From Lachnospiraceae bacterium (GTDB taxonomy: Bacteria; Bacillota; Clostridia; Lachnospirales; Lachnospiraceae): a DNA stretch of 64,000 nucleotides. This document shows positions 34,912 through 48,022 of the stretch, one piece after another (positions within the stretch are counted from its first letter, which is position 1; every line of letters starts with the position of its first letter). Made by a program: the position numbers and the translations under genes. The notes below the pieces were generated by a model that did no database searches, was not told the origin of the DNA, and saw only the letters and a list, made by a program, of their open reading frames with translations. The stretch is from NCBI GenBank assembly GCA_021770755.1, contig JAETQI010000018.1, forward strand, positions 1 to 64,000. Direction: 5' to 3'.

Positions 34912-37442
34912 GAGCCATCAATTTAAAGACGGAGCATCTGACAGACCCTATCGGGATCGATATCGCGAATCCGTATCTGTCGTGGACGTGTGAGGACGGA
35001 ATCACACAGACGGCTTATGAGATCGAGGCTGTGGAAGACGGAAAACTGCTGTGGGGCAGCGGCAAAGTATCCGGTTCGCAGATGCATGCCGTTTTGGAAA
35101 AAGAGCTGCAGAGCAGACAGCGCGTTAGCTGGCGGGTACGCCTCTGGGACGAGGAGGGGCGCGAGGGCGCGTGGAGTGCGCCTGCCCTCTTTGAGACAGG
35201 TATTATGGATAAAGCACTGTTTAAAGCAGTGTGGATTAATCCGGAGCTTGTCTGCGACCCCGAAGTCCACAAGCCTGCAAGCTACCTGAAAAAACATTTT
35301 CATGCCGCAAAGGGAAAGGCGGCAAGGCTTTACATCACCTGCCACGGACTGTACGAGGCGTATATCAACGGAAAACGCGTCGGTGAATTTGTCCTTGCCC
35401 CCGGCTGTTACAATTATGACAAAAAGGTGGCATATCAGACGTATGATGTCACAGATCTGATCCAGGACGGGGAAAATGTGGCAGAGGTCATTCTCGGGGA
35501 CGGCTGGTACCGGAGCGTGTCGGGAGTCGACGGGGACCGCAATCTCTACGGAACAGACGTGGCGCTCTTTTTTCAGTTGGAGATCGACAAAAAGGTCGTG
35601 TGCGTTTCCGACGAAAGCTGGATGGCGTCGCAGTCGGGACCAATCCGCGAGAACGATATGCAGCAGGGCGAGGTAGTAGATGCCCGAATGGAGGAGATCA
35701 CGGATTACCACGGGGTAAAGGTTGAAGCGTTCGGCGTGGAAACCCTGGCCTGTTCCAACTGCATGCCGGTTGCGGAGATGGAGCATTTCACAGGAAAATG
35801 CATCACGACGCCAAACGGGGAAACAGTCATTGATTATGGGCAGAATATGGCGGGATATATCGCATTCCGCTTAAAGGCGCACGCAGGGCAGACGATCGTG
35901 CTCACACACGGCGAGACGCTGGATGAGAACGGCAATTTCACACAGGAGAACTTCCAGGACCGCAAGCGCCACAAGGAGGGCGGCACCAGGCAGCAGGTGG
36001 TCTACACCTGCAAGGAAGGGGTCAATGAGTACAAGGCAAAGTTTACGATCTGGGGATTCCGCTACGCGAAGGTGGAGACGGACATTGATCTGCAGGATGC
36101 GGAGTTTACCGCGATCGCAGTGTATTCAAAAATGCAGGAACTGGGAACATTTACCTGCTCTGACGCCGATGTGAACCAGCTTGTGCACAACAGTATCTGG
36201 AGCCAGAAGTCCAATTTCTGTGATGTGCCGACAGACTGTCCCACGAGGGAGCGCGCGGCGTGGACAGGCGATATGGGTGTCTTTGCGACGGCAGGACTGT
36301 ATCTGGAGGATTGTTATCCGGTGATTCGTAAGTGGCTGGCGGAATGCCGCCTGACGCAGCATGAGGACGGAAAGCTGAGCAATATCTCCCCGCGGAACAA
36401 TAACCCGAGTTTTTTCTCAGGACTGCTTGCCGGTTCCGTGGGCTGGGGCGACGCGTGCATCATTGTGCCGTATGTGCTTTACCAGCGGTACGGGGACGTG
36501 CGGATTCTGGAAGAAAATTACGCGATGATGCAGAAGTGGTATGCCTTTCTGGAAGGGCGCGCAAAGGATAACCCGGAGGACGCTGCGGAATTGATGAAGC
36601 AGAATCCATACCGTGATCATACCATCGAGACGGGGGTGGATTACGGCGAGTGGTGCGAGCCGGATGTCGACAGCACATCCGCGATGCGGACGCCGCAGCA
36701 AAAGGTTGCGACCGCATATTTTGCGCGTTCCGGGCAGATGCTTGCGGAGATTGCGCAGATTCTGGGAAACCCGGAGGATGCAGAGCATTATCGCATAACA
36801 GCGGAAAATGCAGGGAAAGCGTTCCACTATATTGCGGTGCAGGACGGCAGGATTCACTCTGACCGTCAGGCGGAGTACGTGCGCGCGATCACGTTTGAAC
36901 TGCTGACGGAGGAAGAGAAACGGCAGGCGGCGGATAACCTGAACCGTCTGGTGCAGCAGAACGATTACCATCTCAATACAGGATTTCTCTCGACGCCGCA
37001 CCTGTGCGCGGTGCTCGCGGATCATGGGTATGTAGAGACAGCGTACCGGCTGCTCCTTCAGGACACGATGCCGGGCTGGCTCTATCAGGTGAAAAAAGGC
37101 GCCACGACCATCTGGGAGACATGGGACGGGATCAACGAGGAGGGCGTACCCTCTGCCTCCTTAAACCACTATTCCAAGGGGGCGGTCACAGGCTGGCTGT
37201 TTGAGGGCGTGTGCGGGATCCATCTCGTGGATGGTAAGATTGAGATAAAACCGCAGCCATGCAGCATGTTGGATTACGCGAAGGCTGTGTACCATTCGCC
37301 GGTCGGGGATATCGAGAGCGGCTGGCACTGCGAGGGCGGAAAGTTTTCATATGAGTTTGTTATTCCGGCAAATACCAGTGCGGACATTATTCTGCCTGAC
37401 GGGAGAAAAGAACACGTTGCGGCTGGGAAGCATTGTTTTTGA
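34908..37442 (+). CDS. GH78 family alpha-L-rhamnosidase
   Basis: N-terminal PIGIDIANPYLSWTCEDGITQTAYEI, NFCDVPTDCPTRERAAWTGDMGVFA, WLYQVKKGATTIWETWDGI. Confidence 0.92.
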   Translation: MRAINLKTEHLTDPIGIDIANPYLSWTCEDGITQTAYEIEAVEDGKLLWGSGKVSGSQMHAVLEKELQSRQRVSWRVRLWDEEGREGAWSAPALFETGIMDKALFKAVWINPELVCDPEVHKPASYLKKHFHAAKGKAARLYITCHGLYEAYINGKRVGEFVLAPGCYNYDKKVAYQTYDVTDLIQDGENVAEVILGDGWYRSVSGVDGDRNLYGTDVALFFQLEIDKKVVCVSDESWMASQSGPIRENDMQQGEVVDARMEEITDYHGVKVEAFGVETLACSNCMPVAEMEHFTGKCITTPNGETVIDYGQNMAGYIAFRLKAHAGQTIVLTHGETLDENGNFTQENFQDRKRHKEGGTRQQVVYTCKEGVNEYKAKFTIWGFRYAKVETDIDLQDAEFTAIAVYSKMQELGTFTCSDADVNQLVHNSIWSQKSNFCDVPTDCPTRERAAWTGDMGVFATAGLYLEDCYPVIRKWLAECRLTQHEDGKLSNISPRNNNPSFFSGLLAGSVGWGDACIIVPYVLYQRYGDVRILEENYAMMQKWYAFLEGRAKDNPEDAAELMKQNPYRDHTIETGVDYGEWCEPDVDSTSAMRTPQQKVATAYFARSGQMLAEIAQILGNPEDAEHYRITAENAGKAFHYIAVQDGRIHSDRQAEYVRAITFELLTEEEKRQAADNLNRLVQQNDYHLNTGFLSTPHLCAVLADHGYVETAYRLLLQDTMPGWLYQVKKGATTIWETWDGINEEGVPSASLNHYSKGAVTGWLFEGVCGIHLVDGKIEIKPQPCSMLDYAKAVYHSPVGDIESGWHCEGGKFSYEFVIPANTSADIILPDGRKEHVAAGKHCF

Positions 37443-37477
37443 ATGCTGTGAGGTAGTTTTGGAGAATAAAGGGCGTA

Positions 37478-37520
37478 AAAAGATTCTGACACCAATTTTG
37501 GTATCAGAATCTTTTTTTTT
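37478..37520 (+). terminator. Intrinsic terminator at end of glycoside locus
   Basis: aaaagattctgacacc-aatttt-ggtatcagaatctttttttt. Confidence 0.88.
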
Positions 37521-37777
37521 GACAGATTAAGCTTTATGAAAAGTTCCTTAAAATACAAGATAATCAGAAAAACAAGATTGAAAATTGTATCAAGTTTGAT
37601 TATACTATACATATATAGATAAAGTCATTGCAAGTGGAATTTGTGTTTTTTTTTTGCTTGTGTTGGGATAAAATTATTGTTTATTTTGTCAATAAAAATA
37701 TTAAATTGATTGTTTATAGTTGGTAACATAAAAAGAAATCAATATTGCAATATAATTGTTGTATTATTTAAGGATAA

Positions 37778-39004
37778 GTGTTGAGAAAAAAACATACAAT
37801 AGAAGAAAAGAGGAAAGAGATAATGGATGTTATGTCAGTAATTAAAGATCATAGAATAAACAGTACCAATATATATGTTGAAACAACATTTGGAGAGTAT
37901 TTGCAATATGCTAAAGATATAATCAAGAATAATGATTTACAAAGAAAACGTGTAAAAACATCAAAGACAGTATACTCATTGTTAAAAACAGATTTACTTA
38001 ACGGATGTGTAATTCCCCCGTTAGTATTGGCAATTATAAGCGATGATACGAAAATAGAAGAAATGGAGGGTGATGATCTCCAAAAATATATTAAAACACA
38101 TCGAAATCAAGTTTTGATATTGGATGGTTTACAAAGAACGCACACTTTAATTGCCGCAGAAGCAGACGCTATAGCCCAAAAGACAGAACAGTCTTTTTAT
38201 GAATACAAATTGCGATTAGAAGTTTATATAAATATCAATAAATTCGGAGTTTTATACAGAATGCTTACATTGAACACAGGACAAACTCCGATGTCAGCGC
38301 GCCATCAGCTAGAAATGCTATATAGTGATATGTTAAATACAGAGGTAAATGGTGTTAAGTTAATTACGGAAGTTGAAGGAGCGGTACATGCTGATGAAAA
38401 GGAGTTTGTATTTAAAAATACAATTGATGGATTTAACTCTTACATGAATCGAAGTGAATTGCCAATGGATCGTCAGGAAATGCTTGAGAATATTAAGATG
38501 TTAGAAAAAATGTCTATTGAAAATATATCTGGGGATATTTTTAAACTGTTTTTGGAAAGTTATATAAAAGTGTTTGATACATTATGCGAAATATCGCAGT
38601 ATTGTTATGTTGATCAGGATAGACTTGACGAGTATGAGGTATCTGGGTCTCCTTTTGCAAAAAAAATTAGTAAAGCCTTTTCTACATCTCAGGCAATGAC
38701 TGGATATGGATCAGCTATCGGGATAATGAAAGATAAAGGGCTTATTACAGATTTTGGTTCTTTGGACGAAATAGTAAAAGATATTCAGAAATATTGTACA
38801 GATGAAGATGGTGAATGGTTTATGGAATTTTTAAAAAGAATGGATATGATTAGAACTCAGTCAAAGAAAATAGGAAATGCGCAAAGAATGTATTTTCAAT
38901 ATTTTTTCCGAGAATTGTTTAATAAGGAAAGTGACTCATATGGAGATTTATTATTGGCAACAGAAAACGCATATAAAAAATATGACAGTCAGGTAAATGG
39001 GTAA
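37778..39004 (+). CDS. DGQHR/ParB-like domain protein (DndB-like), putative defence protein
   Basis: GTG start with an aagga-type RBS; GCVIPPLVLAI ... ILDGLQRTHTLIAAEAD ... LNTGQTPMSARHQLEML; AT-rich; 1-nt overlap with next ORF. Confidence 0.6.
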   Translation: MLRKKHTIEEKRKEIMDVMSVIKDHRINSTNIYVETTFGEYLQYAKDIIKNNDLQRKRVKTSKTVYSLLKTDLLNGCVIPPLVLAIISDDTKIEEMEGDDLQKYIKTHRNQVLILDGLQRTHTLIAAEADAIAQKTEQSFYEYKLRLEVYININKFGVLYRMLTLNTGQTPMSARHQLEMLYSDMLNTEVNGVKLITEVEGAVHADEKEFVFKNTIDGFNSYMNRSELPMDRQEMLENIKMLEKMSIENISGDIFKLFLESYIKVFDTLCEISQYCYVDQDRLDEYEVSGSPFAKKISKAFSTSQAMTGYGSAIGIMKDKGLITDFGSLDEIVKDIQKYCTDEDGEWFMEFLKRMDMIRTQSKKIGNAQRMYFQYFFRELFNKESDSYGDLLLATENAYKKYDSQVNG

Positions 39005-40053
39005 TGGAATATAAAACGAATGACAATACGCAAGTCAAATATCATAATAATATTTTTCAAATAGTAGACAAGAAAACAGGAAATGAATATTCTTATCAGT
39101 CACAGTTGCAATTAAATTCGTTATTTTATCCAGAAAATTTTGAAATGTTCTTTTTATTTAATACTACTGATGAGATTTCTGAAAACAGCATTTTTAAATT
39201 GTATACTGATGGTGAGCGTATTGGGTGGATTTTTCCAATACAATCGTTGGAATCTCAAGAACATGATTTTGTTCAGGACAAGTTCTATTTAAGTTATGCT
39301 TATGTTGCTATATATAAATTACTTAAAATGATAGATTTCAGTGAACAGGAGTACTCTGATTTTAATATTTTACAGTATTATTCAGATACGATTCAGATAT
39401 TGATATATGATAAAGAAAATGTAGGTAGAATTGATGGTTTTAATATTTCAAATTATGCTGTAGATTTGTTTTGTAAGGGTTACTCTTTCAGCGGACAGGG
39501 AAATGTCTTTACATGTGCTGAAAAAATTGATAAAAATATAAGAGTAAAGCAATTGCCAGAGTCGATTAGAAATATTTCATATATAAATATTTTATTTATG
39601 GAATTAATACCATTAAAGGAATCGAGCTATTCGAAATTTCATTTGATTTATCAGATTATAGAAATCTTGATAGGAGTAGTGTTTAATTACAAAATAAAAG
39701 AAATGATTGTTGAAATTGCAGAATCACCAGATGATTTGTTTGAAAAACGAGATAAGCTTAATGATATAACATTAGAAAGAAATAGAGTTCGATGGCTGTT
39801 TGATAACTTTTCCAATATTGAGTCGCAAAAGGATGAGATTCTTAATAATCAATGTAAAAGATTATTGGTTGAAAACAAGAAGAATTATGACGAAAATAAT
39901 ACTGGAAGTAATCTGTATTCGGTACGATGTTTGATTGTACATAGCCTGTATTCTTTGAATAATGAAAGTCGTGAATTGCTAGCAGAATTGAATAATAGCT
40001 TTTTAGATGTCGTTTTAGACATTTTAACAACCTTTCATGTAAATACAAGATAA
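39004..40053 (+). CDS. Uncharacterised protein with HEPN-like C-terminus (Rx4H)
   Basis: LIYQIIEILIGVVFNYK ... LYSVRCLIVHSLYSLNNESRELL; RCLIVH at 39925-39942. Confidence 0.55.
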   Translation: MEYKTNDNTQVKYHNNIFQIVDKKTGNEYSYQSQLQLNSLFYPENFEMFFLFNTTDEISENSIFKLYTDGERIGWIFPIQSLESQEHDFVQDKFYLSYAYVAIYKLLKMIDFSEQEYSDFNILQYYSDTIQILIYDKENVGRIDGFNISNYAVDLFCKGYSFSGQGNVFTCAEKIDKNIRVKQLPESIRNISYINILFMELIPLKESSYSKFHLIYQIIEILIGVVFNYKIKEMIVEIAESPDDLFEKRDKLNDITLERNRVRWLFDNFSNIESQKDEILNNQCKRLLVENKKNYDENNTGSNLYSVRCLIVHSLYSLNNESRELLAELNNSFLDVVLDILTTFHVNTR

Positions 40054-40238
40054 AAATGTATGCAAGTGTATCTTCATTGTGGTAATTGGATGGGTATATC
40101 CATCTTGCAACAATGCCGTCAGAATTATAATCCGTTTGGTAAAGCAGTGAACGTAATTACAGGCGTAGTCTTTGCGATTGATGCATGCTTTATAGCGTGT
40201 TCTGGCGTGTAAGTAATCTATAGATAACAAAAGGCTTG

Positions 40239-40708
40239 TCAGTCTGACAGGCCCTTTGCTATCTGCATGGAAAATGTAATGATGTAATCTGCGATCTCCT
40301 CCGGGGATTCCTGCATTCCGTTTTGCAGCCACCATTGAATGACGCTGCTGCAACCGCCCGCCAGGAACGTAAAGCCTGCGTTCCGTTTCGCGTCAGGGCA
40401 GTCGCCTGCCGGCGTTGGGCCAAGCCATTGTCCGATATAAAGCAGGCAGCACTCGGATAATCTTTGGATAAATTGATGTTCACTCATTGGAGTACTGATG
40501 GATTGGATGAGCTGGCTTTTGTTGCGCAGCGTGTTCAGTATGGCAATCACTGCGGCATGTGCGCCGTTAGCTTCGATGGAGGCCAGCATTTTTTCAAATT
40601 CCTGAATCCCTTCTGATTCAATTTTTTCCAATAGATCGTAACAGTCCTCATAGTGTTTATAAAAAGTTCCACGATTGATCTCTGCCTTGTCGCAGACGGT
40701 GAATAAGG
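40239..40708 (-). pseudogene. 5'-truncated TetR/AcrR family regulator
   Basis: Minus-strand translation NSLFTVCDKAEINRGTFYKHYEDCYDLLEKIESEGIQEFEKML...; upstream in-frame TAA and no start codon before the HTH. Confidence 0.7.
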
Positions 40709-40828
40709 AGTTTATATTGATAAATTTCTTTTATTTAAGATGAGGGTGTGCTATAATACGATCATGAAGGAATATAGTGATATCGGATCGATAGAATCAG
40801 CAAATCAACGGTGAGGGAGAGGACAGAT

Positions 40829-46702: not shown

Positions 46703-47434
46703 TCAGTCATGCCGCTCCTGCATATCGTCATATGTCTCGCAAAAGCGCGCTGAAAAAGAGGGCTCTTCGCCGCCTGCATACAGATGTGAAATATCCCCGA
46801 AACTGCTGACGCGGAAAATGGCAGTCCCTTCCCTGCGCTCTTCCGTGTTGACCGTGGTGACGGATGTGGGCGCCGCTGCCGTGTGATGCCACAAGATCAT
46901 AGGGGAAATGTTCATGAGATGGCTTAAGAGCACACATTCCACCCCGAAGTGGCAGAAGAATGCGAGCGTATCGCGGTTTGGCTTTTCTGCGCGATAGATG
47001 CCCGATTCCCGGACATAGCCGTGTTCTGCCAGCAGTCTGTCAAAGCCGTCGGTCACCCATTGATATTCCCTGCCGACATTTCCCTCCTCCATGGCTGGAT
47101 GCGTCCTCCACAGATCCCGGTCATAAAAACAAGGCTCACCGGTCCAGTCTGCGGGGAGCCAGTCCCATGCGATCGTGCGTCCGCAAGCCACATCGGGGCG
47201 TCTGATCGAAGGCGCAAATTCCCGGAGCCACTCGTGGGTGACAGCGGTGCGGTTCATTTTTTCCAAGGTGCAGGACGCCGTGGCTTTGGTGCGTCCAAGC
47301 GGCGACACATAAAAGTCTCGGATGTCCATTTGGCAGATCCGTTCTGCCAGCAGTCTGGCTTCCCGCCAACCCTTTTCGGTCAGCGTATCGTTTTCATAAT
47401 CCGGGTCGCCGTGGCGTATGATCAATAATCTCAT
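46703..47434 (-). CDS. Histidine phosphatase family protein
   Basis: LLIIRHGDPDYENDTLTEKGWREARLLAERI, VSPLGRTKATA, FFCHFGVE. Confidence 0.88.
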   Translation of the reverse strand: MRLLIIRHGDPDYENDTLTEKGWREARLLAERICQMDIRDFYVSPLGRTKATASCTLEKMNRTAVTHEWLREFAPSIRRPDVACGRTIAWDWLPADWTGEPCFYDRDLWRTHPAMEEGNVGREYQWVTDGFDRLLAEHGYVRESGIYRAEKPNRDTLAFFCHFGVECVLLSHLMNISPMILWHHTAAAPTSVTTVNTEERREGTAIFRVSSFGDISHLYAGGEEPSFSARFCETYDDMQERHD

Positions 47435-47676
47435 AAAGAATCCCTCATTTCGCATATTTCTTTTTTTCTACAGTTTCCAATTATACCATAGGTGGACAGA
47501 AGATGGAAGAAAAAAGAAATATCAACTCAAGATAAGATTTTTCGCCGAAGAATGAAATGAACTGCTTGACGATATACTAAGAAGAGTGATATTATATATT
47601 TCAGAGAAATCAATACATGCTGTTGTGGATCTGGACATGTTTCCAGGCTGCTGTCGGCGGAATGCGAGGTAAGATC

Positions 47677-47820
47677 ATGTCAAATTTAATAGAATTTTTC
47701 AGAATGGTATTATCATACCTGATGGTTTTTGCGGTGATTGCCGCTGTGTCAGGGCTTGGCGGATTCATCGGTGTCAAAGTGTGGAAGCCAAAGGCAAAGT
47801 CAGAACAGGTAAAAGAATAA
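47677..47820 (+). CDS. Small single-TM protein
   Basis: MSNLIEFFRMVLSYLMVFAVIAAVSGLGGFIGVKVWKPKAKSEQVKE. Confidence 0.55.
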   Translation: MSNLIEFFRMVLSYLMVFAVIAAVSGLGGFIGVKVWKPKAKSEQVKE

Positions 47821-47834
47821 AAATATCGGGGATA

Positions 47835-47875
47835 AGGTGTAAAGCTGTATACTTGCAGTCTTTACACTTTTTCAT
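47835..47875 (+). terminator. Intrinsic terminator
   Basis: ggtgtaaag ... ctttacacttttt. Confidence 0.7.
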
Positions 47876-47909
47876 TTTTGTATTCAGAAATAATCGTCTG
47901 ATTTTGTGA

Positions 47910-47938
47910 TTGACAACAAGATTTGGTTGCACTATACT
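47910..47938 (+). promoter_or_regulatory. Promoter of nrdD operon
   Basis: TTGACA (47910-47915), 17-nt spacer, TATACT (47933-47938). Confidence 0.7.
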
Positions 47939-47992
47939 AGAATACAGACACTATATCTAGTATAGTGATTAAATAACAGACACTATATAAAA
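47929..47992 (+). promoter_or_regulatory. Putative NrdR-box cluster
   Basis: Perfect 11-bp inverted repeat cactatactag (47930-47940)/ctagtatagtg (47957-47967) and repeated cagacactatat (also around 47978-47989), overlapping the -10. Confidence 0.6.
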
Positions 47993-48022
47993 GAAAAACA
48001 CGTATAAGGGAGTAGGATGTAA

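Follow-up and report, generated by a model that had tools for sequence, protein, structure and literature searches.

A Dazbog defence gene pair in a Lachnospiraceae genome, with a putative HEPN RNase as its second protein

The gene pair analysed here lies in an AT-rich part of the window, by which we mean the whole stretch of 64,000 nucleotides. Judged from the sequences, the pair consists of dzbA and dzbB from Dazbog, a known anti-phage system. We established this Dazbog membership together with the linkage of the genes in an operon, the conservation of their motifs and the accessory status of the pair. DzbA probably serves as a sensor and DzbB as a HEPN RNase effector of abortive infection.

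Identity and setting of the gene pair

The first ORF matched the PADLOC profile of DzbA (PDLC03835) with an E-value of 3.7e-130 and 432.8 bits over profile positions 2-392 of 393 (391/393 positions). The second ORF matched the DzbB profile (PDLC03836; E 2.1e-62, 209.5 bits) over positions 6-338 of 341 (333/341). Since both matches are near full length, we assigned the pair to the Dazbog defence system. It has the gene order and coupling of that system and no structural difference from it; what we add is the HEPN reading of DzbB. An earlier note on this DNA had proposed a two-gene anti-phage module, which the PADLOC matches bear out. It had also taken the module for an uncharacterised one, and this did not hold, since Dazbog (DzbA and DzbB) is already described; PMC10952713 cites Millman et al. 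2022 for it.

The G+C content falls to 0.24-0.35 over about 37,500-40,000, compared with 0.50-0.57 in both flanks, so the AT-rich dip noted earlier is real. The remaining layout was also as described there. The two ORFs extend over 37778-39004 and 39004-40053 on the forward strand and have the single base 39004 in common (TAATG), which is the reported overlap of 1 nt. They are preceded by a strong intrinsic terminator (37477-37516, forward strand), which belongs to the upstream gene and parts the module from it. Its inverted repeat has 19-nt arms, reaches -19.7 kcal/mol (z -5.56 versus shuffles) and is followed by a T run. Downstream, outside the system, lies the remnant of a 5'-truncated TetR-family gene (40239-40727, reverse strand; TetR_C_8, 2.3e-12), which lacks the HTH start and has an in-frame stop upstream. 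The search for known RNA families in the module found none. Flanking direct repeats (13-nt core AAATACAAGATAA) were rejected as unconvincing in DNA so AT-rich. The window contains a second, shorter AT-rich dip at 47250-48020 (GC 0.35-0.42), which looks mainly intergenic and sits upstream of an ORF resembling anaerobic ribonucleotide reductase.

The Dazbog module in the window is accessory. DzbA was present in 3/194 relatives from the window's genus and family, with the window's own genome counted and one of the three being a distant homologue. DzbB was present in 7/397 relatives from the genus and family, four of them with weak C-terminal matches only. The other same-genus genomes searched did not contain Dazbog, save for one distant DzbA homologue. 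DNA similarity to the genus relatives stops at 37440, where the upstream 844-aa gene ends, and picks up again at 40827, where cytidine deaminase starts; the non-syntenic stretch (37443-40826) carries the module and the TetR remnant. When a strict empty site was sought in the relatives, the two flanks were instead found on different contigs. Because similarity is lost between 37440 and 40827 and the flanks are on separate contigs in relatives, we placed the module at a synteny break. The sporadic occurrence agrees with the accessory nature claimed in the earlier note, and core synteny in all relatives was not seen.

Distribution and linkage of dzbA and dzbB

A scan with a DzbA alignment yielded 80 genome loci and 6 viral-contig loci. 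Alignment-based scans succeeded where single-sequence pattern scans, for DzbA in viral contigs and for DzbB in genome contigs, found nothing. The phage records searched gave no match, nor did the E. coli genomes searched at the DNA level. Dazbog loci were found in Firmicutes, Bacteroidota, Proteobacteria, Cyanobacteria, Actinobacteria and archaeal records. The closest relatives of the window copy come from gut clostridia, and intact copies from another genus share 79%/70% identity with the two window ORFs.

Of the 92 DzbA loci examined, a few of which duplicate one another, 84 have DzbB as the next gene downstream, with gaps mostly of -65 to +17 nt. The wide co-occurrence of the two genes is thereby borne out. 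Most of the 8/92 loci without a DzbB match are at contig ends or contain distant homologues. The sequence ends at or very near dzbA in L080, L081, L094 and L105, and the 399 nt available after dzbA in L070 contain no DzbB piece. L003 and L008 hold distant homologues, and L008 has a diverged DzbB-like neighbour. At the Trichormus sp. NMC-1 locus (L053; 7001-9361) a DDE transposase follows dzbA in the place of dzbB, which was not found in the locus. In L066, L084 and L095 dzbB is broken into two ORFs, which suggests frameshift decay or an assembly error. The two proteins have diverged together: their distances correlate over 72 loci with a Spearman coefficient of 0.64, reached by 0/999 permutations. 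The mean identity to the window is 44% for DzbA versus 26% for DzbB.

The neighbours of Dazbog elsewhere are diverse and include integrases, transposases and some restriction-modification genes. On account of methylase-trigger reports and several plasmid neighbours we considered a general link with methyltransferases. We rejected it, since a C5-methylase-like ORF was present in just 3/86 loci (BLAST) and an adenine-type motif in 3 more. On a Moritella marina plasmid (NZ_CP044398.1, L177:2439-6509) dzbA-dzbB stands right behind a DNA cytosine methyltransferase, which a MvaI/BcnI restriction gene adjoins. Similar restriction-modification neighbours are present in Roseobacter pTB3 (L180), B. cereus (L020) and L. 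plantarum (L179, HsdR). The distant DzbA homologue in the window's genus (genome G030, L176:2400-6219; 169.9 bits) has no full DzbB match downstream and adjoins a C5 methyltransferase, a Vsr-like endonuclease and a probable restriction gene. On plasmid p.1 of Pseudomonas sp. DY-1 (NZ_CP032615.1, L019:9001-11375) the pair is positioned among zot, TspB-like and major capsid protein genes and looks like the cargo of a filamentous phage (inovirus-type); parts of this gene set are present twice on the plasmid.

Predicted domains of DzbA and DzbB

The dzbA ORF is open from GTG 37778. Since homologues begin at ATG 37823 (M16 of the ORF, 72/80), this start is the more probable one, giving a gene at 37823-39004 on the forward strand. 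It encodes 393 aa with a predicted GmrSD_N/DUF262 domain of the ParB/Srx-like type and a helical C-terminal half (AF2 model: pLDDT 89.1, pTM 0.81). Window DzbA scored 27.5 bits against Pfam GmrSD_N, below the curated cut-off of 33.2, and 67/75 of its homologues matched this family (E <= 0.01), compared with only 2/75 for DndB. The forward-strand segment 38123-38137 encodes DGLQR (in ILDGLQR), the window's form of a DG[LM]QR motif which is the counterpart of the DUF262 nucleotide-pocket motif DGQQR. D, G, Q and R are conserved in 80/80 homologues and the third position is L in 78 and M in 2, so the window protein lacks the first Q of (I/V)DGQQR. In the NTGQ segment (38273-38284, forward strand) N, G and Q are likewise found in 80/80 homologues and T in 79/80. 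A Foldseek search of the DzbA model against the PDB gave no significant match; the ParB-like PadC, SspE and BrxU were in the top seven. Within the ParB/Srx superfamily, DzbA appears to fall into the GmrSD_N (DUF262) branch rather than with DndB/DGQHR. The earlier suggestion of a DGQHR/ParB-like, DndB-type protein was right about the superfamily and wrong about DndB and the DGQHR motif, which, given the Pfam counts, makes it a near miss inside ParB/Srx.

The second gene, dzbB (39004-40053, forward strand), encodes 349 aa with a predicted beta-rich N-terminal domain and an all-helical, HEPN-like C-terminal domain (about residues 190-345). Its AF2 model was confident (pLDDT 93.1, pTM 0.90), with most of its strands located before residue 136 and its helices at 192-343. 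The sole invariant residues among 74 distinct DzbB homologues are Y305, R308 and H313, which form the predicted RNase active-site motif YxxRx4H (YSVRCLIVH, 39916-39942, forward strand). The residue after R308 is N in 57 homologues, C in 16, the window included, and S in 1. F212, Y216, Q217 and E220 (39637-39663, forward strand), conserved in 72-73/74 homologues, lie on the C-terminal domain's first long helix. R308-H313 closes the helix 300-313 and is followed by a loop and the helix 320-343. A HEPN motif at such a helix end has been described, as has Rx4H with the usual follower after R (PMC3710099). R308 and H313, corresponding to the HEPN motif Rx4-6H with its typically polar residue after R, are present in 74/74 homologues. 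The RCLIVH motif singled out in the earlier note lies at 39925-39942, as given there, and the invariance of its R and H and their position at a C-terminal helix end uphold the HEPN call.

Our HEPN call is based on the motif and the helix placement. The helices are where a HEPN fold would have them, and Foldseek searches of the model against the PDB and against viral structures gave no significant match. A sequence search of solved structures returned chance matches only. Window DzbB matched none of the Pfam HEPN families. Among all Pfam families, HEPN_Apea and HepT-like were matched by the most DzbB members, though by just 4/69 and 3/69. Aligned to HepT with hhalign, the C-terminal domain reached a probability of 65% and a score of 31.2, while a column-permuted null had a mean of 10.7 and a maximum of 16.7 (n=60). 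Masking of residues 303-316 lowered the score to 12.3, which is the null level. Therefore, the profile signal is real, yet it equals the motif itself, and the masked alignment lends no support to homology with HepT outside Rx4H. In the same test ApeA (three sequences) and HepT, both accepted as HEPN families, scored just 15.8 against each other, so a missing signal outside the motif is not unusual. Taken together, we consider the C-terminal domain of DzbB a likely HEPN RNase. Proteins of 422-446 aa in L007, L010 and L016 carry a C-terminal TRNSLVHS (Rx4H) and weakly match the C-terminal half of DzbB; they are possibly other HEPN defence proteins, and the one in L007 adjoins a type I specificity-like gene.

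Related systems and possible mechanism

GmrSD, BrxU and SspE, which are type IV and phosphorothioate-sensing enzymes, have a DUF262-type domain, as predicted for DzbA, and share with it the motif DGxQR, but the third motif position is Q in these enzymes and L or M in DzbA. They also carry a DUF1524 nuclease, whereas Dazbog has a separate HEPN-motif protein in its stead. DzbB shares with the HepT-like and ApeA HEPN RNases, to which it has the best profile similarity, a C-terminal helical domain and R[N/C]x3H at a helix end, and differs from them by its large beta-rich N-terminal domain. The partner of HepT is MNT and ApeA has none, while DzbB is partnered by a DUF262 protein. HEPN RNases beside ParB-fold proteins, as proposed for Dazbog, were noted by Anantharaman et al. 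2013 (PMC3710099), namely RiboL-PSP-HEPN with ParB and MAE_28990 with ParB and a DNA methylase. HEPN-ParB/DUF262 pairings as such were already recorded in 2013, although those operons involve other HEPN families and the window protein matched neither MAE_28990 nor RiboL-PSP. PD-T4-2, which PMC10952713 files under DUF262 as well as HEPN, pairs for defence the same two domain types that we propose for Dazbog; in PADLOC it was matched by neither window protein. The same 2023 domain review places Dazbog under DUF262. Our reading of DzbB is absent from its HEPN row, and we do not claim priority for it.

How Dazbog works is described as unclear or unknown in reviews of 2025-2026 (PMC12409349, PMC12926258). 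Protection is lost when the DUF262 gene is mutated or deleted (PMC10952713), and the system is activated by phage methylases through an unclear route (PMC12409349). In the mechanism we propose, DzbA would use its DUF262 domain with the DG[LM]QR pocket to sense infection, plausibly as phage DNA methylation or a phage methylase. It would control DzbB and unleash this putative RNase, which would then cleave RNA by means of R308 and H313. Phage production would be halted and the infection would be abortive. We infer the split into sensor and effector, the RNase activity of DzbB and RNA as its target. The more specific version, a modification-sensing and RNA-cleaving abortive system in which a DUF262 NTPase-like sensor of phage DNA methylation switches on a HEPN RNase, is a serious possibility that we put forward tentatively.

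Three other explanations were weighed against this sensor-effector reading. HepT-like HEPN proteins are toxins of toxin-antitoxin pairs, and the tightly coupled two-gene operon with its correlated divergence would suit a classical pair of this kind, in which DzbB is the HEPN toxin, DzbA the antitoxin that neutralises it, and phage resistance a secondary effect. We regard this as unlikely. At 393 aa DzbA is large, it has a conserved motif of the nucleotide-pocket type, it is needed for defence (PMC10952713) and, unlike typical antitoxins, it is the better conserved partner (44% vs 26%). We see a slim chance that the pair acts as a type IV-like restriction system, with DzbA recognising modified phage DNA, the pair attacking that DNA and DzbB being a scaffold or a DNA-acting partner rather than an RNase. 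The DUF262 proteins GmrSD, BrxU and SspE do act on modified DNA (PMC10952713), and PadC, SspE and BrxU ranked high, though not significantly, among the structural matches of DzbA. However, the search for a DUF1524/HNH or other DNase domain in DzbA and DzbB found none, PMC10952713 likewise describes Dazbog without such a domain, and the invariant set of DzbB is the RNase-type YxxRx4H.

It is very improbable that the window holds a decayed or silent Dazbog copy kept by chance at the synteny breakpoint. Neither ORF is shortened, all invariant residues are preserved in both, and their identity to undamaged copies from another genus is 79%/70%, even though a truncated TetR gene adjoins the module and dzbB is broken in other loci (L053, L066, L084, L095).

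As a locus, the window pair is ordinary and represents one more copy of the known Dazbog system. Its wider value is a mechanistic lead, since the YxxRx4H motif of DzbB, invariant in bacteria and archaea, offers a two-residue test of an RNase-based abortive mechanism. If the modification-sensing version of this mechanism is true, Dazbog would couple a type IV-like sensor to an effector that degrades RNA, where a DNase would be.
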